DNA of 33,710 nt, taken from the NCBI GenBank assembly GCA_029557535.1, contig JAKQII010000321.1, forward strand, positions 1-33,710. Reading direction: 5' to 3'. The notes under the pieces are model-generated. The model saw nothing but the letters and a program-made list of their open reading frames with translations, was not told where the DNA came from and ran no database searches. Shown piece by piece: positions 3,412-33,710 of the stretch; position 1 is the first letter of the stretch, and every line of letters starts with the position of its first letter. Both the position numbers and the translations under genes were made by a program. This DNA is from Acidobacteriota bacterium (GTDB lineage: Bacteria > Acidobacteriota > Blastocatellia > Pyrinomonadales > Pyrinomonadaceae).

Positions 3412-3487
3412 GGGCATGTACGTCAATTGGTAGACAGCCTCCCTTACAAGGAGGAAGTTAGGGGTTCGAGTCCCTTCGTGCCCACCA
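3412..3487 (+). tRNA. tRNA-Val (UAC)
   Basis: A 76-nt cloverleaf can be drawn by hand. The acceptor GGGCATG pairs with CGTGCCC. The anticodon stem CCTCC/GGAGG encloses loop CTTACAA with anticodon TAC at 3445-3447. The T-arm contains GGTTCGAGTCCC, and the 3' CCA is encoded (3485-3487). It is the first gene of a two-tRNA unit. Confidence 0.96.
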
Positions 3488-3580: not shown

Positions 3581-3657
3581 GGGGTCGTAGTTCAGATGGT
3601 TAGAACGCCAGCCTGTCACGTTGGAGGTCGCGGGTTCGAGCCCCGTCGGCCCCGCCA
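3581..3657 (+). tRNA. tRNA-Asp (GUC)
   Basis: A 77-nt cloverleaf. The acceptor GGGGTCG pairs with CGGCCCC (one G-U pair). The anticodon stem CCAGC/GTTGG encloses loop CTGTCAC with anticodon GTC at 3615-3617. The T-arm is GGTTCGAGCCCC, the discriminator base is G and the encoded CCA is at 3655-3657. Confidence 0.96.
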
Positions 3658-12746: not shown

Positions 12747-12760
12747 GCCAAGAAGCGCGT

Positions 12761-12936
12761 TTCGGATTTGGGATTGCCGAATTCGGATTTGGGATTTCGG
12801 ATTGCCGATTGACACAATCGCAAATCGAAGGTCGAGAATTGCAAATGGCGGCACCGGCCGCGATCGGATTTCGGATTTACGATATTTACGATTTTGGATT
12901 GCCAATCGACACAATCGCAAATCGCAAATGGGATGT
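12761..12936. repeat. Compound heptanucleotide repeat with inverted and direct copies
   Basis: The tract has GGATTTGGGATTGCCG and GGATTTGGGATTTCGGATTGCC units followed by inverted units (CAATCGCAAATCG). The pattern GGATTGCC-[G/A]AT-[T/C]-GACACAATCGCAAATCG then occurs a second time about 100 bp later. Each copy can fold on itself. The remainder of the spacer to 13040 has GGTTAAAGGGCTTTACC, a weak hairpin without a T-run, and is otherwise featureless. Confidence 0.75.
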
Positions 12937-13040: not shown

Positions 13041-14228
13041 CTATGCCGAGCGAGATTCCTTTTCCACCGGAATCACATGAACCGCGATGTCGTTCACTTC
13101 GGCGAGGAAGCGGTTAATGATCGAACCCTTCACGATGATTTCCCAGCGAGATCTTGCGGATTGACCGAAGATGACGTGCGTGATTTCATTTTCCCGGGCG
13201 AATTTTAGCAACTCGTTGGCAACACTCTTCCCTTTCAACCGAACAACGCGCGCACCGAGCAGTTCCGCGAGTTTCACGTTCTCAACGAGTGACTCGTACG
13301 CTTCAGGCGAGATTCGCCGGTCCGATTCGTCAGGTGTTTCAACGTAGACCGCGAACCAGTCATCGGTTGCCATCCGGCCCGCGATCCGAGCGGCCGTTCG
13401 CAACAGCTTTTTCCCGGATCCGCGCGAGGCGAGGCAAACCATGATTTTCTCCGGAACGACGAATGGAGCGAGTCCCTCGCGTTCTCGATACTCATGATCC
13501 TGGGCGGCCTGATGGTATGCGACCTGGCGAAGCGCCAACTCCCGAAGGGCAGCAAGGTTCCCCTTACGGAAAAAGTTGTTCAGTGCCCGTTCTATCTTCT
13601 CGACGGAATAGATCTTCCCCTGCCGAAGGCGGGTCCGAAGCGTATCGACCGAAACATCGACATCGATCACTTCGTCGGCGCGCTTGAAAAAACTGTCGGG
13701 GATCGTCTCGCGTACCTTGACCCCTGTTGTTTTGAGGACAACGTCGTTCAGTGATTCGATGTGTTGGATGTTCACGGCGGTAATGACCGAAATGCCGTTA
13801 TCAAGCAGCTCAAGGACATCCTCGAATCTCTTGCTGTTTCTCGATCCTTGGATGTTCGTATGCGCGAGTTCATCGACGACCGCAACTGTCGGTCGGCGCT
13901 CTATCACCTCCTCAAGGTCCATTTCTTCGAAGATCGTTCCCCGATATTCGACTTGTTTCAATGGAATCGACTCGAGGTCTTTGATCATCTTGCGGGTTTC
14001 GTCTCGTCCGTGCGTTTCGATGACCCCAATGACAACGTCGATGCCCTGTTCCTTGAGCTGATGCGCGTCGTCGAGCATTTGAAACGTCTTTCCGACACCC
14101 GCGGCGGCCCCGAGATAAACGCGCAGCTTCGCCCGCTCCGAATCGGTGACCTTTTTCAGTATCGATTCCGGAGAGGGTCTTTGTGTTACCCGATCCGGTG
14201 CTTCCGTGATATGTGTGTCGACGAACAT
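13041..14228 (-). CDS. kdpD: KdpD N-terminal sensory protein (KdpD domain + USP), separate from its kinase
   Basis: A 395-residue protein covering only the cytoplasmic input half of KdpD. It has Walker A GAAAGVGKT (40-48), ETHGRDETR, VVDELAHTN (117-125), GSRNSKRFEDVLELL and VNIQHIESLND. From about 253 a universal-stress-protein-like domain follows, ending in GQSARSRWEIIVKGSIINR. It stops where E. coli KdpD (about 894 residues) would begin its membrane helices. The missing half is encoded 6.6 kb upstream at 20822-22000. It is the last gene of the kdp operon, 3 bp after kdpC, with AGG-TAA-AGG before the ATG. Family knowledge: this part senses or transmits K+ and ATP status, and the USP domain of Staphylococcus KdpD binds c-di-AMP. 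Here it presumably acts in trans on the kinase. Confidence 0.93.
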   Translation of the reverse strand: MFVDTHITEAPDRVTQRPSPESILKKVTDSERAKLRVYLGAAAGVGKTFQMLDDAHQLKEQGIDVVIGVIETHGRDETRKMIKDLESIPLKQVEYRGTIFEEMDLEEVIERRPTVAVVDELAHTNIQGSRNSKRFEDVLELLDNGISVITAVNIQHIESLNDVVLKTTGVKVRETIPDSFFKRADEVIDVDVSVDTLRTRLRQGKIYSVEKIERALNNFFRKGNLAALRELALRQVAYHQAAQDHEYREREGLAPFVVPEKIMVCLASRGSGKKLLRTAARIAGRMATDDWFAVYVETPDESDRRISPEAYESLVENVKLAELLGARVVRLKGKSVANELLKFARENEITHVIFGQSARSRWEIIVKGSIINRFLAEVNDIAVHVIPVEKESRSA

Positions 14229-14231
14229 CCT

Positions 14232-14795
14232 TTACCTTGAGATCCTGTCGAGCTGAAGATTCAAACGCAGAACATTGACCCTCGGCTCGCCAAGTATCAA
14301 GACCTCCCTCGCCTCGGTAGACTCGGCTACGATCCGGCGCAACTCAGACTCGTTTATGCCGCGTGCTCTCGCCACTCTCGGAATCTGGAACTCAGCCGCC
14401 GCCGGCGAGATATGCGGATCAAGGCCGGAGGGGCTCGTCGTGAGCAGGTCCGCCGGAACGCGAACCGTCGGGTCGTTGCCGGTCAACTCTTCAACATCCG
14501 TTTGGATTCGCGAAATGAGTTTCGAGTTTGTCGGGCCGAGATTCGATCCGCCCGACGCCGATGCGTCGTAACCGCTTCCGGCAGCGCTGGGACGTGAATG
14601 AAAGTATCGTTCCGATAGAAATCCCTGTCCGATCAGTTCCGATCCGACAATTCGTCCTTCGTGTTCGATCAATGAGCCGTTCGAACGGAATGGGAAGACC
14701 GCTTGTGCGATTCCCCAGACAACGATCGGGTAAACAACGCCGAGCGAAGCAGTCAGGATGAGTATCAACAAGGTCGATGCAATAATGTCTTTCAT
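14232..14795 (-). CDS. kdpC: K+-transporting ATPase subunit KdpC
   Basis: A 187-residue single-span subunit: an N-terminal membrane helix (STLLILILTASLGVVYPIVVWG), then periplasmic conserved blocks (GSELIGQGFLSERYFHSRPSA, ASGGSNLGPTN, VPADLLTTSPSGLDPHISP, AEFQIPRVARARGI, EPRVNVLRLNLQLD). In the complex KdpC stabilises the KdpA-KdpB assembly and is thought to raise the affinity for K+ or ATP. Length is typical. It lies 10 bp after kdpB and 3 bp before the sensory gene, so all three should be co-translated. Confidence 0.97.
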   Translation of the reverse strand: MKDIIASTLLILILTASLGVVYPIVVWGIAQAVFPFRSNGSLIEHEGRIVGSELIGQGFLSERYFHSRPSAAGSGYDASASGGSNLGPTNSKLISRIQTDVEELTGNDPTVRVPADLLTTSPSGLDPHISPAAAEFQIPRVARARGINESELRRIVAESTEAREVLILGEPRVNVLRLNLQLDRISR

Positions 14796-14805
14796 ATATC
14801 TGATC

Positions 14806-16854
14806 CTATTGGGCTATTCCGATGGCGTTGATGATGATGTCGATGAGCTTGATCCCGATGAACGGGGCGATAAGTCCGCCAAGCCCGTAAATGCAAAGAT
14901 TGCGCCGCAGAAGGGCCGATGCCGAAAGCGCGCGGTAGCGCACCCCTTTGAGGGCGAGCGGAATCAGGCCGATGATGACCAACGCATTGAAGATCACCGC
15001 CGAAAGTATTGCGGATTGGGGCGTTTGGAGATTCATTACGTTCAAACCGTTGAGGACCGGGAAGGTCGCCACGAACATCGCCGGAATGATCGCAAAATAT
15101 TTCGCGACATCGTTGGCGATTGAAAACGTGGTCAAGGCTCCGCGCGTCATCAGAAGCTGTTTGCCGATTTCGACGATCTCGATCAGCTTCGTCGGGTCGC
15201 TGTCGAGATCGACCATATTCCCCGCCTCTTTGGCAGCTTGCGTACCCGTGTTCATCGCGACGCCGACATCCGCCTGAGCAAGCGCGGGCGCGTCGTTGGT
15301 TCCGTCTCCGGTCATGGCGACGAGTTTTCCTTCCGCTTGCTCGCGTTTGATGAGCGCCATTTTGTCCTCAGGCTTTGCTTCGGCGAGAAAATCGTCAACC
15401 CCGGCTTCCGCAGCGATTGATGCAGCCGTCAACCGATTGTCGCCGGTGATCATCACGGTCCGGATCCCCATTTTACGCAACTCATTGAAGCGCTCGCGCA
15501 TTCCGCCTTTGACAATGTCCTTGAGGAAAATCACACCGAGCGGTTGAAGGTTTTCCGCCACCACGAGCGGCGTCCCGCCGACGCGGGCAACGCGTTCGAC
15601 GATCCTTCGCAATTCGGGGAGATCTCCGTTTCTTGATTCGCCAAGATACGCTTCAATCGCATCGGCTGCTCCTTTCCGGATCTTCCGGCCGTTCAGATCG
15701 ATTCCCGACATTCTCGTTTGGGCCGTGAAGGGTACGACCTCGTGCGATTTTCCAACTCCGCCGATCTTGCGACCCCTCAGACCAAACCTGTTCTTTGCAA
15801 GGACGACGATCGATCGCCCCTCGGGTGTTTCATCTGCGAGCGACGCGAGTTGTGCAGCATCCGCAAGGCGTAGATCTGAAACCCCCGGAAGCGGGATGAA
15901 CTCGGTCGCTTGCCGGTTTCCCAACGTGATCGTTCCGGTCTTGTCGAGGAGCAGCGTGTTGATGTCTCCGGCCGCTTCGACAGCGCGGCCGCTCATCGCA
16001 AGTACGTTCTTCTGTATCAGACGGTCCATTCTGGCGATGCCGATCGCCGAAAGAAGTCCCCCGATTGTAGTTGGAATCAGGCAAACGAGAAGCGATATCA
16101 GAACGAAGACCGTCTGCGCCGCGTTGGAGTAGATCGCGAACGGCTGGAGCGTGACCACCGCGAGCAGGAAAGTGATCGTCAGTCCGGAAAGCAGAATATT
16201 GAGCGCGATCTCGTTCGGTGTCTTCTGGCGTGCCGCGCCTTCGACGAGTGCGATCATTCGATCGATAAATGATTCTCCGGGGTTCGAAGAGATTCTGACC
16301 TTGATCCAATCCGACAGAACTTTCGTCCCGCCGGTGACAGCCGAGCGGTCGCCGCCGGATTCGCGTATAACGGGCGCGCTTTCTCCGGTGATCGCCGATT
16401 CATCCACCGACGCCACGCCTTCGATCACGTCTCCGTCGCCCGGAATGAGATCGCCCGCTTCGACGAGTACGATATCACCGACCCGCAGTTCGGTCGCGCC
16501 GACGGTCTTGATCTCGCCTTTGGAACCAAGCCGTTTGGCGACGGTTTCCGTTTTCGCCTGGCGCAACGTGTCTGCCTGCGCCTTTCCGCGGCCCTCCGCC
16601 ATCGCTTCGGCGAAATTCGCGAAGAGGACGGTAAACCACAGCCAGAGCGTGATTTGGAATTCAAAGCCGACGTTGCCCGCGGAACCGGTCGCGAGGTTCG
16701 CGATCAGCTTTCCCGTTAGGAAAATCGCACCAACTTCTACGACGAACATCACCGGGTTCTTCAGCATTGTCCGCGGATTCAGTTTCTTAAAGGATTGGAT
16801 CAGTGCCTGAGAGATTATCGTTGGGTCCCAGATCGAGATCTTTTGCTTTTTCAT
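14806..16854 (-). CDS. kdpB: K+-transporting P-type ATPase subunit KdpB
   Basis: A 682-residue catalytic subunit. I take ATG 16854 ([11 protein letters not shown]); the longer frame to 16908 overlaps the kdpA end. P-type landmarks are in order: the [12 protein letters not shown] actuator loop (TGES 156-159), the phosphorylation site DKTGT with D304, the [18 protein letters not shown] hinge, and [20 protein letters not shown] before the last helices. The Ser of TGES corresponds to the E. coli serine whose phosphorylation inhibits the pump. It drives high-affinity K+ uptake through KdpA. It lies 16 bp after kdpA, and the ribosome binding site is weak, so coupling is likely. Confidence 0.98.
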
Positions 16855-16870
16855 AAATTCAATCGCAGCC

Positions 16871-18586
16871 TCAGAATTTTTGACCGCTAAGCATCTGGAA
16901 ATGCTCAAGTATCGGCGAAAGGGTCAACACCGGGAAAAATGTCAGGGCGCCGACGATGATGATCACGCTGATCAGCAGCGCGGTGAAAAGCGCGGTGTTC
17001 ACCGGGAACGTGCCGAGAGATTCCGGAACCCGTTTCTTGCGCGCCAGATTGTTGGCGATCGCAAGGACCGGAACGATCATCAGGAATCGGCCGACGAGCA
17101 TCGCCGCGCCGAGCGCCGTGTTGTACCACAAAGTGTTGGCGTTCAGACCGGCAAACGCCGAGCCGTTGTTCCCCGTCGCCGAGGTGAAGGCGTAGAGGAT
17201 CTCCGAAAGTCCGTGCGCGCCCGGATTGTTGAGCGATGTCAGCCCGAAATCTTCGCCGAGAACCGAGATCGCGGTCAGCACGAGGATCGTCAGCGGGAAG
17301 ATCAAGGCATAGAGAATTGCCATCTGCACATCGTATGACTCGATCTTCTTGCCCAGATACTCGGGCGTCCGCCCGACCATCAGACCGGCTATGAAGACGG
17401 TCAGAATCACGAACACCAACATCCCGTACAGTCCCGCGCCGATGCCGCCGAATATCACTTCACCGAGCAGGATGTTGACGAGCGGTACCATTCCGCCGAG
17501 CGGCGTGAAGGAGTCGTGCATCGAATTGACGGCACCGCAGGACGCTCCGGTCGTTACCGTCGCAAAGAGGACCGAATTCGTGATTCCGAACCGGCTTTCT
17601 TTGCCCTCCATATTGCCGCCGAGTGTCGATTGATCGGCATTTTGCGGCAGCAGCGGGTTTCCCCGCGACTCCGCCCAGTAAGAAGCGAAGGTGCCGCACG
17701 TCAGCAGTATCATCATTGCCGCATAGACCGCCCAACCGTGGCTCTGTGACCGCGTGACTCGACCGAGGGTGTAGGTCAGTCCGGCAGGAATGATCAGAAT
17801 CAGCAGCATCTGGACGAAGTTCGCGAGCGGAGTCGGGTTCAGGAACGGATGCGCGGAATTGGCATTGAAGAATCCGCCGCCGTTCGTGCCGACGAGGACG
17901 ATCGCCAACTGCGACGCGACGGGGCCCATGGCGATCGTTTGTCCGGTGCCTTCGAGCGTCTGGACCACCTCATACGGCTTGAAATTCTGGATCACGCCCT
18001 GCGAAACAAAGAAGATCGCGGCGACGAACGCAAGCGGAAGCAACACGTAAAGGATCCCGCGAACGATATCGCTCCAGAAGTTCCCGAGCGAATCCGTCTC
18101 GAACCGCGCGATTCCCCTGATCAACACGACGGCGATCGCGAGCCCGACCGCGGCGGAAGCGAAGTTCTGGATGGAAAGCGCCGTCATTTGCGTAAAATAG
18201 CTCATCGTAGCTTCGCCGCTGTATCCTTGCCAGTTAGTGTTCGTCATGAACGAGACCGCAGTGTTGAAGGACGAGTCTGGTGACGGGGCGGCGAACGCCT
18301 GCGGGTTAAGCGGTAGGTAGTACTGAAGCCGCTGAATCGCGTACACGGCGAGCGTTGAGATCATGCTGAACGCCACCATCGCACGTCCGTATTGTTTCCA
18401 ATTCATCTCGGAGTCGGGCTTGATCCGGCAGAAAGCGTAGATCATTCGTTCGATGGGGCCGAGAATCCGCTCGAAGGGAGCCCGTTCGCCGTCGAAGACC
18501 CGTGTCAGATAGATACCCATCGGTTTGGTGACCAATGTCAGCACGACTAGATACCCCAAAATTTGCAGAATTCCATTAAGCGTCAT
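16871..18586 (-). CDS. kdpA: K+-transporting ATPase subunit KdpA
   Basis: A 571-residue, roughly ten-helix membrane protein. The four K+ selectivity-filter loops are recognisable: [58 protein letters not shown] and [16 protein letters not shown]. Length and order match the family. It begins 4 bp after kdpF (TAA-CATT-ATG), with GGAG inside the kdpF end serving as its ribosome binding site. It forms the K+ entry channel from which ions pass to KdpB. Confidence 0.98.
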
Positions 18587-18795: not shown

Positions 18796-19827
18796 TCAGA
18801 AGTTGTAGCCGACCTCCAGCAAAAAGAAGTGATTTCCCATCAATGCGTCGGAATTCCCGATCGCATAACTCCAGTATGTCGTCACGCGCGGATGGGGTTT
18901 GTAGATCACGCCCGGCGTGAAGTAGCCGTTGGAATGCCTTCCGGTCATCCAATCGGCGGCCAGCGACACCTTGCCGTTCAGGCTGTATTCGAAACCGAAT
19001 TGACCTCCGGCGCGGACGGCGTTTGCGGCGAAGACGTTCTTGCTGGCGACGAACGCGCCCGCCGTGAGACGCGCCTTGCCGATCGATTTGCTTCCGGCGA
19101 CATACGAATAGGTTCCGAGATCGTATGACCGCCGGCGAACGGGAACGTAGAGATTGGTGCCGGCAATAAGATCGGTCTTGTATTTGGGATTCCTGTAGAA
19201 TCTCCATTTAACCGTCGGAACCAGCGTTGTCGTGTCGGCCCCCGGTTGGACGTTTCCGACGACGTTCAATCCGACCTCTACGTCTCCGCCGACGCCGACC
19301 ACAACCCGCGGCACGAAACTCGAGAATTTTGAAAGGGCCTGCCGGTTGACCGGTTTGAAGGCCGCGTCCAGTTCCACATAAACACCACCCCTCTCGAGAA
19401 CGTCGGTGGTTGGAACGTTGAAGATCGTCTGTTGCGAACGAGCGGTGGATGGAATGATGAGCAGCGATAAGAGAAGTATGAGAATCCCCGAAGCCCCTGT
19501 ATTCAGGCCCTTGCCTTTCAATTTGTTCAGCTTCGCGACCCGCAAATGTCTGTCGGCGCGGTCGATCTCGTCAAGGCAATGCGCGGTCAAATACAGAAGC
19601 GGAAAGATCGCCGCGACCAGAATCGAGCCGGCGCGCGAGAACCGGTCGCCGAATGGCGTCTCAATAACATTCGGCAGCACCGATAGCGAAAGACCGACGC
19701 AAAGGCAAACAACCGTCAGGCTGATGCTGACGGCCGCCGCAAAAGTCCAATGCCGCATCGAACTGCGCTCATCGGGAACCGTTCGTTCCGACCGTTCAAA
19801 ACTAGGTTTCTTAAGAGTCATTTCCAT
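18796..19827 (-). CDS. Kdp-locus fusion: inner-membrane module plus outer-membrane beta-barrel
   Basis: Taking ATG 19827 gives 343 residues; ATG 19821 is equally possible, and the frame up to 20058 is judged leader rather than coding. Residues about 1-105 hold two membrane helices (HWTFAAAVSISLTVVCLCVG and AGSILVAAIFPLLYLTAHCL) and the polar LDEIDRADRHLRV. A third hydrophobic stretch (ILILLLSLLIIPSTARSQ) looks like a signal peptide and precedes a beta-barrel: FVPRVVVGVGGDVEVGLNVVG, TVKWRFYRNPKYKTDLIAG, LTAGAFVASKN, ADWMTGRHSNGYFTPGVIY and terminal LLEVGYNF (Phe-ended). The arrangement suggests two proteins fused in one frame, or a barrel whose own start codon is cryptic. It lies 14 bp before the micro-protein, so it is the first gene of the kdp operon. 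A K+-related porin role is inference. Confidence 0.7.
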   Translation of the reverse strand: MEMTLKKPSFERSERTVPDERSSMRHWTFAAAVSISLTVVCLCVGLSLSVLPNVIETPFGDRFSRAGSILVAAIFPLLYLTAHCLDEIDRADRHLRVAKLNKLKGKGLNTGASGILILLLSLLIIPSTARSQQTIFNVPTTDVLERGGVYVELDAAFKPVNRQALSKFSSFVPRVVVGVGGDVEVGLNVVGNVQPGADTTTLVPTVKWRFYRNPKYKTDLIAGTNLYVPVRRRSYDLGTYSYVAGSKSIGKARLTAGAFVASKNVFAANAVRAGGQFGFEYSLNGKVSLAADWMTGRHSNGYFTPGVIYKPHPRVTTYWSYAIGNSDALMGNHFFLLEVGYNF

Positions 19828-20025
19828 AACAAGATTTTCGATGCCAACGAATAAAGTGCGATGAACTCCTGTTCCGCACGAGGATTCGTTGCGCCGGGAT
19901 CCAGCCTCCCTGATCCATGCCGCCGCAACCATCGGCCGGACCGCAACGATCGGGGCTGTCCCCGCTTTGCGATAAACGAGTCGCTTTCTCCGCGCGGGAA
20001 CACCTCCCGGCGGATTCGGCTTCGG
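19828..20025 (-). promoter_or_regulatory. Candidate structured leader of the kdp operon (possible ydaO-type c-di-AMP riboswitch)
   Basis: About 200 nt between the palindrome and the first gene of the operon. Read on the minus strand it has GCCGAATCC, then a CGGGA-GGTGT-TCCCG hairpin flanked by CCGC/GCGG. A CGGGG-ACAG-CCCCG hairpin follows, then a direct repeat CCGAT[C/G]GTTGCGG, a GGATC...GATCC stem, AGGGA...TCCCGGCGCAACGAATCCTCGT and GCGGAA. The opening GCCGAATCC and the closing AGGGA...TCCCG...AAC...CCTCGT resemble the ends of the ydaO (c-di-AMP) class, which often controls K+ transport genes. The GGAACC and GGGGTGAAT core elements are not clearly present, so the match is tentative. The ORF covering it has non-native composition. 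Confidence 0.38.
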
Positions 20026-20050
20026 CAAAATTGTCAACAAGACAATTTTG
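20026..20050. promoter_or_regulatory. Perfect 10-bp inverted repeat upstream of the kdp operon
   Basis: CAAAATTGTC (20026-20035) and GACAATTTTG (20041-20050) form a perfect palindrome around AACAA. It lies 10 bp past the phased array, between the array and the structured leader. It could be a second operator or a small hairpin at the RNA 5' end. It lacks the G+C-rich stem of an intrinsic terminator. Confidence 0.6.
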
Positions 20051-20060
20051 GACCCCATTC

Positions 20061-20126
20061 CATAAGGTTGGCGTAAGTGATATGTAAATTGTTCGAAAGA
20101 AGTTCGTAAGGAAGTCGTAATGATGG
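20061..20126. promoter_or_regulatory. Six-unit 11-bp direct repeat, predicted KdpE operator array
   Basis: Six consecutive 11-bp units begin at 20061, 20072, 20083, 20094, 20105 and 20116. Their first six bases are CATAAG, CGTAAG, TGTAAA, CGAAAG, CGTAAG and CGTAAT; consensus CGTAAG-N5 (CTTACG on the operon strand). The remaining five bases vary. OmpR/PhoB-family regulators bind as head-to-tail dimers on direct repeats with 11-bp spacing. The array lies 28 bp after the kdpE stop and directly upstream of the kdp structural operon, so KdpE is the obvious candidate. Three dimers could bind in tandem. Confidence 0.8.
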
Positions 20127-20154: not shown

Positions 20155-20853
20155 TCAGCTTTGTCCGGGGTTAAAACGATAACCGACCCACGGTTCCGTC
20201 ACAATATATTGAGGTTCTGAAGGGTCCTTTTCGATCTTTTTCCGCAGCTGCCCGACAAAAACCCGCAGATATTCGGATTGGCCGGTGAAATTCCCGCCCC
20301 AAACAGCGCCCAGCAATGTCCTTTGCGTCAGGACCTTTCCCGGATGACTGACGAAATAGACGAGCAGGTCGTACTCCTTTGGGGTCAGGTGGATCGTCTT
20401 TTCATCGACGGTGACTTCGCGCGAGTCGAGATCGATACGAAGATCACCTGAGCTAAGGATGTTCACGGTCTCGGACGGACGCGTGCGACTTCGCCTCTGA
20501 ACTGCCCGGAGCCGCGCCAGCAGCTCCTCGATCCCGAACGGCTTTGTCACGTAGTCGTCGGCACCTGCATCGAGAGCTTCGACCTTTATCCTTTCCTCGC
20601 CTTTGACGGAAAGAACGACGATCGGCGTTTCCGAGTCGGCGCGGATCTGACGGCACAACTCAAGACCGGTCATTCCGGGCATCACAAGATCGGTGACGAT
20701 GACATCCGGCGACCAACTGGCCGCGATCTCCAGCGCGTCGAATCCGTTGTCCGCATACCGTGTGTCATAGCCGTTCGCGATCAACCCGGTCGTCAGAACC
20801 CGAACGATCTGCGGCTCGTCATCAACGATCAGGATCCGTGGTTTCGTTTCCAT
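20155..20853 (-). CDS. kdpE: KdpE response regulator
   Basis: A 232-residue OmpR-family regulator from ATG 20853 (METKPRILIVDDE). ATG 20865 is possible, but the GGAG would then touch it. The receiver domain has D11/D12, phospho-acceptor D55 (VIVTDLVMPG) and K104 (VTKPF). The C-terminal winged helix has LTPKEYDLLVYFVSHPGKVL, LRVFVGQLRKKIE and TEPWVGYRF, matching KdpE. The start overlaps the kinase stop by about 32 bp, so the two are co-translated. It should activate kdp transcription on K+ limitation, and the phased 11-bp array 28 bp downstream of its stop is the predicted target. Confidence 0.96.
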   Translation of the reverse strand: METKPRILIVDDEPQIVRVLTTGLIANGYDTRYADNGFDALEIAASWSPDVIVTDLVMPGMTGLELCRQIRADSETPIVVLSVKGEERIKVEALDAGADDYVTKPFGIEELLARLRAVQRRSRTRPSETVNILSSGDLRIDLDSREVTVDEKTIHLTPKEYDLLVYFVSHPGKVLTQRTLLGAVWGGNFTGQSEYLRVFVGQLRKKIEKDPSEPQYIVTEPWVGYRFNPGQS

Positions 20854-22000
20854 ACTCTTGATCATCTCCAATTGGCAAAGTAAACGAGAATTTCGCTCCG
20901 ATCTTGCCGTCAGTGACCGAAATCGTCCCGCCGTGGGCTTCGATGATGCCCTTCGCGATCGCCAAACCGAGGCCCGTTCCGGGGGAGGCGCGCCCGCGGA
21001 AAGGGATCCTGACGAACTTCTCGAAGATGGCGTCCCGGTCTTTCGGAGCGATTCCGGGCCCCTCGTCTTCAACTGTGAACACAAGATGTCCGGAATCCAG
21101 CCGAGCCGAAGAAACAACTATCGCCGTCCCGTCCGGCGAGTACTTGACCGCATTTTCGATTAGGGAATACAGGACCTCGGAAACGGCGCGCGCATCGACC
21201 CTGATCACCGGAAGATCCGGGTCAATCGACACGATCAGCCGATGTTTATCAAGTCTGCTGCGAATTCGCGCCACGGCGGCCTGAACGATCTCCTCGACCG
21301 AATCCCATCTCGCCGTGACCGACAATTCGCCGGATTCTATCTTAGCAAGTTCGATCATTCCCTCCACGAAATGATCGAGCCGGTCCGCTTCCTCGTTTAT
21401 GACGAGCAACATATCGCGCTTCATCTCCGTCGTCAGGATCGAATCTGCCGGATTCCTATCGCGATCGTTTAGCAAAGTCGTAACGGACGCCTTTATTGAT
21501 GTCAGCGGCGTTCGAATATCATGCGTTACGGCATCGAGGAGCGCAGACTTTAGTTTGGCGCTTTGCTTAAGCGCTTCGGCGTGGCTTGCCTTCTCAAACG
21601 CTTCGTTCAGTTCGTAGTACAGGCGCGAGATCTGGTCGTTTGCCGCTTCGGCCTGGAGCGCGCGTTCCTTCAGCCGCGCCGACAGTTGGCCCGCGGTCAG
21701 GGCAACGACCAGAAAAGCGGCCAACGCGACCCAGTTCTCGGGATCGGAGATCGTCAGTGTTCCGGTCGGCGGCAGGAAGAAATAGTTGAAACACAGCACC
21801 GCTACTATCGACGCGAGCAACGCCGGCCGGCTCCCCCAGACAGTGGCGACGAGGAGCACGATCAGAAGCAGGCAGAAGGCGACACCTGTGATCGAGATGT
21901 ACTGTTGGATAGGTTCAACAACGAATACAACGGCGATCGTACCGAGGCCCGCAACGACGTAGCCAATTATTGATCGGCTGCTGATGGGGTCAATGGGCAT
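20822..22000 (-). CDS. KdpD C-terminal histidine kinase (DUF4118 + HisKA + HATPase)
   Basis: A 392-residue kinase equal to the second half of KdpD. It has four closely packed membrane helices with short periplasmic loops (about 10-110, DUF4118 type, including RPALLASIVAVLCFNYFFLPP), a coiled segment, HisKA with H160 (AVTHDIRTPLTSIKAS), the N-box ENAVKYSPDG (N283), EDEGPGI and GTGLGLAIAKGIIEAHGG. The KdpD ATP/USP input domains are absent here and encoded by 13041-14228. It is followed by kdpE with an overlap. All catalytic boxes are intact, so it should autophosphorylate and pass phosphate to KdpE. Confidence 0.94.
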   Translation of the reverse strand: MPIDPISSRSIIGYVVAGLGTIAVVFVVEPIQQYISITGVAFCLLLIVLLVATVWGSRPALLASIVAVLCFNYFFLPPTGTLTISDPENWVALAAFLVVALTAGQLSARLKERALQAEAANDQISRLYYELNEAFEKASHAEALKQSAKLKSALLDAVTHDIRTPLTSIKASVTTLLNDRDRNPADSILTTEMKRDMLLVINEEADRLDHFVEGMIELAKIESGELSVTARWDSVEEIVQAAVARIRSRLDKHRLIVSIDPDLPVIRVDARAVSEVLYSLIENAVKYSPDGTAIVVSSARLDSGHLVFTVEDEGPGIAPKDRDAIFEKFVRIPFRGRASPGTGLGLAIAKGIIEAHGGTISVTDGKIGAKFSFTLPIGDDQEYGNETTDPDR

Positions 22001-25860: not shown

Positions 25861-25935
25861 ATCATGTCGGATTTGTGATTTCGGATTTCGGAATTTGGGT
25901 GTCGCAATCCGCAATCCCAAATCCCAATTCCCAAA
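25861..25935. repeat. Inverted heptanucleotide repeat hairpin between mglB and mglA
   Basis: GGATTTGTGATTTCGGATTTCGG followed by AATTTGGG faces AATCCGCAATCCCAAATCCC plus AATTCCCAAATCAC around TGTCGC. The whole 75-bp mglB-mglA spacer is therefore one long inverted array. In mRNA it would form a hairpin directly before the mglA start, where no ribosome binding site is otherwise visible. Confidence 0.8.
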
Positions 25936-26418
25936 TCACGAAAACAGGCTGTCAATATCCTCGTCTGTAATTTCGGCGAAGAATGAGTTTTCGCTCAACC
26001 GGTGTGCGGCCGAGTCGCGCGCGACGTCCTCGAGGAGCGCAGCGATCTCATGGCTCGCTTTCTTGGCGCGCAGCTTCACAAGTCCGAGCGTCGAGCGTTC
26101 ATCGAAAACGACGACGAGAAGACTTCGGCCGATGACGCTGATGAAAATACTCTCGCGCTCACCTTCGTGAACGACGCATGGAAAAACGTCCTCACCGATC
26201 AGTTTCGCCATCGAACTCGTCGCGGCGACGTTGCCGGCCGCAAGCGACGAAAAACTCGTCGTGTCCATGTCGCCGATGTCGCCGTGGAATGCAATCGGCT
26301 GACCGTCGCGGTCAACGAGAAACACTACCCGCGATGCGCACTCAACACACAGCCTCACAAGGATGCTTTTGATCCTCTGAAACTGATGTTCGTGAATGAC
26401 AATTGGCGTTTCGATCAT
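25936..26418 (-). CDS. mglB: MglB-type Roadblock/LC7 protein
   Basis: A 160-residue roadblock protein: a leading helix HQFQRIKSILVRLCVECASR, then VVFLVDRDGQPIAFHGDI, the SFSSLAAGNVAATSSMAKL helix, FISVIGRSLLVVVFDERSTLGLVKLRAKKA and an acidic C-terminal tail (FFAEITDEDIDSLFS). MglB dimers bind MglA and stimulate GTP hydrolysis, setting cell polarity. It precedes mglA by 75 bp of repeat sequence and is read in the same direction. The tail resembles MglB tails that contact MglA. Confidence in the pair is high because of the adjacency. Confidence 0.92.
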   Translation of the reverse strand: MIETPIVIHEHQFQRIKSILVRLCVECASRVVFLVDRDGQPIAFHGDIGDMDTTSFSSLAAGNVAATSSMAKLIGEDVFPCVVHEGERESIFISVIGRSLLVVVFDERSTLGLVKLRAKKASHEIAALLEDVARDSAAHRLSENSFFAEITDEDIDSLFS

Positions 26419-33500: not shown

Positions 33501-33524
33501 TCGTCTACCGTCTACCGTCTACCG
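33501..33524. repeat. Tandem heptanucleotide TCTACCG x3
   Basis: Three perfect copies at 33504-33510, 33511-33517 and 33518-33524. It has the same 7-bp period as the other spacer repeats but a different sequence. Confidence 0.9.
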
Positions 33525-33575
33525 ATTCGTAATAGCTGATAACGGAAAGCTGGAAACGAACAGCTTCAGGTCATC

Positions 33576-33710
33576 ACCACCGACCACCGACCACCGACCA
33601 CCGACCGATTTGCGATTTTCAATTTGCAATTTGCGATTTGAGGGGTTGCTCACCGACCACCGACCACCGACCGATTTGCGATTTTCAATTTGCGATTGAG
33701 TGGCGATACT
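33576..33710. repeat. Compound heptanucleotide array (CCGACCA and TTTGCGA) with a 43-bp direct repeat
   Basis: CCGACCA is repeated four times near 33581-33607 and again at 33653-33672. Each run is followed by CGATTTGCGATTTTCAATTTGC. As a result a 43-bp block (33585-33627) is exactly repeated at 33651-33693, 66 bp apart. The array continues to the window edge. There is no gene from the IS end to 33710. Confidence 0.88.

Follow-up and report, generated by a model that had tools for sequence, protein, structure and literature searches.

The closest described system is the kdpFABC promoter of Escherichia coli, where the response regulator KdpE binds TTTATA and TTTACA, two half-sites 5 bp apart in an element at -72 to -50, and where changes to TTTA abolish binding while a differing fifth base has no effect (PMC3264566). 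In the E. coli KdpE literature, the residue R193 is described as conserved only among KdpE orthologues. PMC4415409 presents 11-nt direct repeats as general for OmpR/PhoB-type regulators, together with an interaction between regulator and sigma, and describes the PhoB/PhoP operators of Streptomyces as built from a varied number of such units. A third point of comparison is the control of kdp and kimA by c-di-AMP in Bacillus. PMC6488665 states that c-di-AMP riboswitches on kdp were absent from every genome with an effective KdpDE, the two being seemingly mutually exclusive.

Here we describe an array of six half-sites in a 33,710-nucleotide (33.7-kb) stretch of DNA from a member of the Pyrinomonadaceae, the whole of which is hereafter called the window. 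Like the E. coli kdpFABC site (PMC3264566; 4kny, 4kfc), the array consists of TTTA(T/C)A-type hexamers with 5-bp spacers and has kdp as its putative target. Unlike the E. coli site, it has more than two half-sites, namely four in relatives and six in the window, its row stops 10 bp short of the -10, and the arrays of the family also precede KimA-type, Kup and other importers. PHO boxes, as PMC4415409 describes them, share the head-to-tail 11-nt direct repeats and may likewise have more than two units, but the hexamer and the signal are different, and the number of units is fixed at four in the relatives studied here. As in Bacillus (PMC6488665; RF00379), an RF00379 leader stands before potassium importers in relatives; unlike in Bacillus, the KdpE-type array, the -10 and RF00379 are found in series, three times before kdp, and the window has no aptamer. 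No description of such an array was found in the open-access literature, judged by titles and the openings of abstracts.

Results

The genes surrounding the array run on the minus strand in the order kinase, regulator, array, unnamed gene, kdpA, kdpB, kdpC and KdpD N-terminal protein. The histidine kinase (20822..22000) has a DUF4118 domain, corresponding to the C-terminal half of KdpD, and carries no KdpD N-terminal domain of its own; the KdpE-type response regulator, the presumed binder, is 232 aa long (20155..20853). Past the promoter follow a gene without family match, whose relatives recur behind arrays (18796..19827), kdpA (16871..18586), kdpB (14806..16908), kdpC (14232..14795) and a KdpD N-terminal sensor protein with a Usp domain and no kinase (13041..14228).

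The product of the unnamed gene is barrel-like by eye only. Its relatives, often split as two separate genes, occur in L179, L189, L193 and L210-L213, at arrays with and without kdp, and in L198 a BBP2 porin begins 4 bp past the array. In the genome to which the window belongs, TrkH is present and Kup was not found; a KimA search of the same genome, run without a positive control, gave no match and shows little. A sigma-70 promoter scan found no promoter, and a terminator scan two weak terminator-like sites. The window also contains two tRNA genes (3412-3484 and 3581-3654, plus strand) and tandem repeats with a 7-bp period at 895-950, 12760-12929, 25867-25937 and 33502-33697 (GATTTGGGATTGC-like, ACCACCG and CACCGAC).

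The array itself occupies 20061..20121. Read 5' to 3' on the minus strand, its units are ATTACG (unit 1, 20121-20116), CTTACG (unit 2, 20110-20105), CTTTCG (unit 3, 20099-20094), TTTACA (unit 4, 20088-20083), CTTACG (unit 5, 20077-20072) and CTTATG (unit 6, 20066-20061). On the plus strand, the same hexamers appear as CATAAG at 20061, CGTAAG at 20072, TGTAAA at 20083, CGAAAG at 20094, CGTAAG at 20105 and CGTAAT at 20116. Neighbouring hexamers are 11 bp apart at every step, with 5-bp spacers; the E. coli hexamer TTTACA is present once, next to CTTACG (twice), CTTATG, ATTACG and CTTTCG. The minus-strand units resemble TTTA(T/C)A-N5, which places the window array with the E. coli type.

The array is the top-scoring 6 x 11-bp site in the window, with 31 of 36 column matches, as against a maximum of 29 at period 11 in 400 dinucleotide-preserving shuffles of the window. 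Scored against YTTAYR, it reaches 34/36 vs 29 for the best of 400 dinucleotide shuffles. Within its own genome, the four-unit pattern at up to 3 mismatches matches solely this array, in three overlapping registers.

A preliminary description of this DNA had reported an exact 11-bp periodicity of six units lying between kdpE and the kdp genes, and both points hold: all steps are 11 bp, the half-site score of 34/36 compares with at most 29 in shuffled sequence, and the KdpE-type regulator gene stands on one side and kdp on the other. The consensus it gave, CGTAAG-N5, captures a real repeat, but the informative strand is the minus strand, towards kdp. Its statement that the sequence differs from the E. 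coli site has to be withdrawn, since the minus strand shows the TTTA(T/C)A-N5 half-site type given in PMC3264566.

When periods 8-20 were taken together, one of the 400 shuffles equalled the column score of 31, and this single case is what favours a chance periodicity, or a structural phasing of the DNA without a binding protein. We regard such an origin as extremely improbable, given that hexamer, phase, strand and the distance to the -10 are all conserved in many genomes, which contradicts it. Chance was also rejected on the basis of the 400 shuffles and of the excess of the exact pattern over its reversed control in 119 genomes. A mobile or tandem repeat was rejected as well, because the units share phase and hexamer and not their whole sequence.

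Conservation upstream of kdpA was assessed in 80 named loci, 26 family regions and the window (107 in total), of which 103 were used, four regions of 300 bp or less having been dropped. Four units of the half-site YTTAYR were scored, for a maximum of 24. A score of at least 21/24 was reached on the kdp strand by 42 of the 103 regions at period 11, as against 0-2 of 103 for each of the other periods from 8 to 16; on the opposite strand, it was reached by two of 103 at period 11 and by 0-1 at other periods. A score of at least 20/24 was found in 52/103 regions upstream of kdp vs 4/188 segments downstream of kdpA, and the named loci at this level are all Acidobacteriota-type records. Once the 52 regions were aligned on their arrays, units appeared at four positions with background on either side; the window is alone among them in having good units directly flanking both sides of its best four. 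Looser versions of the array still precede kdp in other Acidobacteriota. The 103 regions and the 61 exact arrays described below are partly non-independent, with near-identical loci such as L107/L109 and L128/L135.

The four-unit pattern was found in exact form at 61 places, spread over 46 of 119 family genomes, and the reversed control twice, in 2 genomes; two matches among the 61, both in L220, are a single low-complexity repeat in two registers. We examined the contexts of all 61 on the strand of the array, downstream to 2.6 kb and, for a KdpE-like gene, upstream to 700 bp. Downstream are found KdpA (18 arrays), the KimA type (15), Kup (7) and TrkA (1), 41 in sum, and a further 7 of the 61 precede other APC-type permeases whose substrate is unproven (four of a PF13520 type, three of an unannotated type). 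The remaining 13 have no importer or APC-permease gene downstream. A KdpE-like gene lies directly upstream in 40 of the 61, with or without kdp nearby; taken together, 56/61 arrays have an importer or APC permease downstream and/or a KdpE-like gene upstream, and 5/61 have neither. Beyond the family, 5 of 199 phylum genomes contain the strict pattern together with its -10, and none the reversed control.

The preliminary description had looked to close relatives and to random occurrence as checks on its reading. The array is kept upstream of kdp in both congeners that have kdp (L033 and L034), as four units, and the family arrays are non-random, mostly at potassium importers.

Regarding the permeases, 12 of the 15 KimA-type cases were labelled by L213, which matches the solved KimA structure at 1e-155, and three come from a group 53% identical to L213. 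The L191-type permease has PF13520 as its sole match and no solved-structure match. The unannotated type, a conserved multi-spanning protein of ~640 aa found downstream of KdpE-type arrays, has no Pfam, NCBIfam or PDB match and no relation to Kup, and its link to KimA is a distant one, by profile only (probability 94, E 1.2e-7). Its copies lie at L212:2190-4121(-), taken as reference, L204:2736-4733(-), L205:2069-4003(-), L210:4116-6038(+), L211:6456-8378(+) and L215:2519-4441(-), with 66-89% identity to the L212 copy, and a relative at L066:16560-18437(-). The family is a candidate new potassium importer.

Some arrays face away from kdp, towards the neighbouring permease (L212:4210-4325, L215:4539-4577 and L210:3983-4021). 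Since two arrays stand back to back in L212, one spacer may drive two importers there. Related four-unit arrays, several per genome, were also seen in G028 (C678, C832, C916), G014 (C387, C583), G061:C93 and G092:C379; their form is roughly YTTACCRAATC-TTTAC...-CTTATYC...-YTTACA, and by appearance they could be operators for a sister regulator.

Of the 52 kdp arrays, 33 have a TANNNT hexamer 16 bp past the first base of the fourth unit; no other offset has it in more than 4 of the 52. The same fixed offset is found in 59 of the 61 exact arrays, among them 41 of the 43 without the KdpA label, and the search pattern for these arrays contained no TANNNT. Because the offset is fixed, 10 bp separate the row of sites from the -10, and the row takes up the place of the -35; in the relatives, there is no separate -35. 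The candidate -10 of the window, CAAAAT (20045..20050, minus strand), lies 10 bp past the last half-site and is weaker than the rule because its first base is C. The inverted repeat CAAAATTGTC-TTGTT-GACAATTTTG (window 20016-20050) spans this -10 and the presumed start, where relatives have GACAATTTGTC.

A 55-bp matrix was built on 58 of the 61 arrays, leaving out the two L220 registers and one array near a sequence end. In the whole window it detects a single good site, with 30.2 bits at 20099(-), and the best score outside the array is -15.4 bits. This site (20045..20099, minus strand) comprises units 3-6, 10 bp and the -10, in the conserved four-unit register, and its score lies at the low end of those of the relatives. 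The copy in the window also departs from type in its unit 3, CTTTCG, and in the first base of its -10. None of the 58 relatives has a unit of at least 5/6 one or two steps upstream of the four. Four units are therefore the norm, and having six sets the window copy apart. The six units of the preliminary description were seen in the window only; the conserved module has exactly four.

The absence of a fifth unit directly upstream in the 58 relatives and the preference of the matrix for units 3-6 would also suit a narrower form of the KdpE-array reading, in which only units 3-6 work, units 1 and 2 having arisen by a local duplication and remaining without function. We consider this sub-variant quite possible, though short of probable: units 1 and 2 match YTTAYR at 5/6 and 6/6 in exact phase, and unit 3, which lies inside the conserved place, is among the weaker ones.

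The regulator encoded beside the array has a receiver domain (PF00072) and a winged-helix DNA-binding domain (PF00486). Among solved structures, it matches E. coli KdpE best (4kny, 1.7e-54), followed by an unnamed regulator (6lgq, 2.1e-54). NCBIfam KdpE is its top model, yet the score of 207.8 bits misses the equivalog cut-off of 325, and the MtrA model scores nearly as high; we call it KdpE-type because it falls below this cut-off. The DNA-contact residues R193, R200 and T215 of E. coli KdpE are all kept in the window regulator. Among 51 distinct relatives sharing at least 50% identity, the places of R193 and R200 hold R and R in 49 of the 49 that cover them, and that of T215 holds T in 48 of 48.

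The near-equal closeness to MtrA models, and the generality of 11-bp direct repeats in the OmpR/PhoB family (PMC4415409), could also mean that the array belongs to another OmpR/PhoB-type regulator and that the KdpE-like gene is a mere neighbour. This appears very improbable to us, as a KdpE-like gene directly precedes 40 of the 61 exact arrays (46 genomes), irrespective of kdp, the targets are potassium importers of unrelated families, the half-site is of KdpE's TTTA(T/C)A type, and R193, KdpE-specific according to the literature, is retained.

A shared leader follows the -10 in many relatives. Of the 59 exact arrays that were scanned (the 61 less those of L220), 17 are followed within about 60 bp by a match to the Rfam c-di-AMP model RF00379. 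Array, -10 and RF00379 stand in a row before kdp at three loci, in the stretches L201:8519-9827, L116:4864-5135 and L117:2011-2249 upstream of kdpA; in L201, the order is kinase, regulator, array, -10, riboswitch, one more gene and kdpA-kdpB. By their arrangement, these loci would speak against the mutual exclusion described in PMC6488665, with the reservation that the window kinase has no KdpD N-terminal domain.

The window leader contains no c-di-AMP aptamer detectable with RF00379 at E up to 5 or with a model from 14 relatives, and a riboswitch in the window itself was rejected, both models being without match. The leader start, TTGACAATTTTGCCGAAG (20020..20037, minus strand), resembles the first bases of the relatives' riboswitch leaders, with no aptamer after it. 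Its first 18 nt are at edit distance 3 from the relatives' 21-nt leader consensus, a distance reached by 3 of 1500 random 60-bp pieces of the window, and a site at 15398 is equally close. The leader folds somewhat better than its shuffles (z -2.2). The window may possibly have lost a riboswitch in its history, though the support for this is weak.

Discussion

We hold it to be highly likely that the repeat in the window is a KdpE-type operator array in an activator promoter with PhoB-like geometry. A KdpE operator array was already the proposal of the preliminary description, and it remains the best explanation in view of the conservation in congeners, the position at potassium importers and the adjacent KdpE-like gene. 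As far as sequence comparison can tell, the array very probably marks a shared potassium-control promoter, whose stricter four-site version precedes several unrelated kinds of importer and of which the six-site copy is an unusual variant. Counting against the KdpE-array reading are the atypical window copy, the sub-cut-off regulator, the 13 of 61 arrays without an importer or APC-permease gene downstream and the 5 that have no KdpE-like gene upstream either, the rarity outside the family, and the position of the E. coli KdpE site, which is farther upstream (-72 to -50; PMC3264566).

In the mechanism we propose, the array would be the operator of the neighbouring KdpE-type regulator and form part of an activator promoter. 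At low potassium, phosphorylated KdpE molecules would bind to successive 11-bp half-sites in head-to-tail order, along one face of the DNA. On pho-box promoters, PhoB boxes replace the -35 element, and PhoB holds RNA polymerase there. The row of KdpE would similarly cover the -35 place and hold RNA polymerase, possibly through contact with sigma, thereby activating transcription. The conserved module of four half-sites, probably two dimers, would serve kdp, KimA-type, Kup and other importers; the window copy would add two half-sites to this module, and these may have an effect of their own.

A broader reading, for which we see roughly even chances, is that the family possesses one compound promoter, made of four KdpE half-sites replacing the -35, a -10 at a fixed distance and, in more than a quarter of cases, a c-di-AMP riboswitch within about 60 bp. 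Standing before unrelated importers, kdp included, such a promoter would read potassium shortage and c-di-AMP in series, and the copy in the window would be derived, having lost its riboswitch while gaining two regulator sites. The succession of KdpE-type array and c-di-AMP riboswitch upstream of kdp goes against the published claim of mutual exclusion (PMC6488665).

The signature of four YTTAYR at 11 bp with TANNNT 10 bp on may serve to find potassium genes, and its finds already include a permease family without Pfam or NCBIfam match. Moreover, because arrays of four and of six sites both exist in nature, the influence of site number on activation can be put to the test. Altogether, these observations would extend KdpE from the two-half-site activator of kdp known in E. 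coli to the regulator of a potassium regulon that is shared across the family and has a fixed promoter of four sites.
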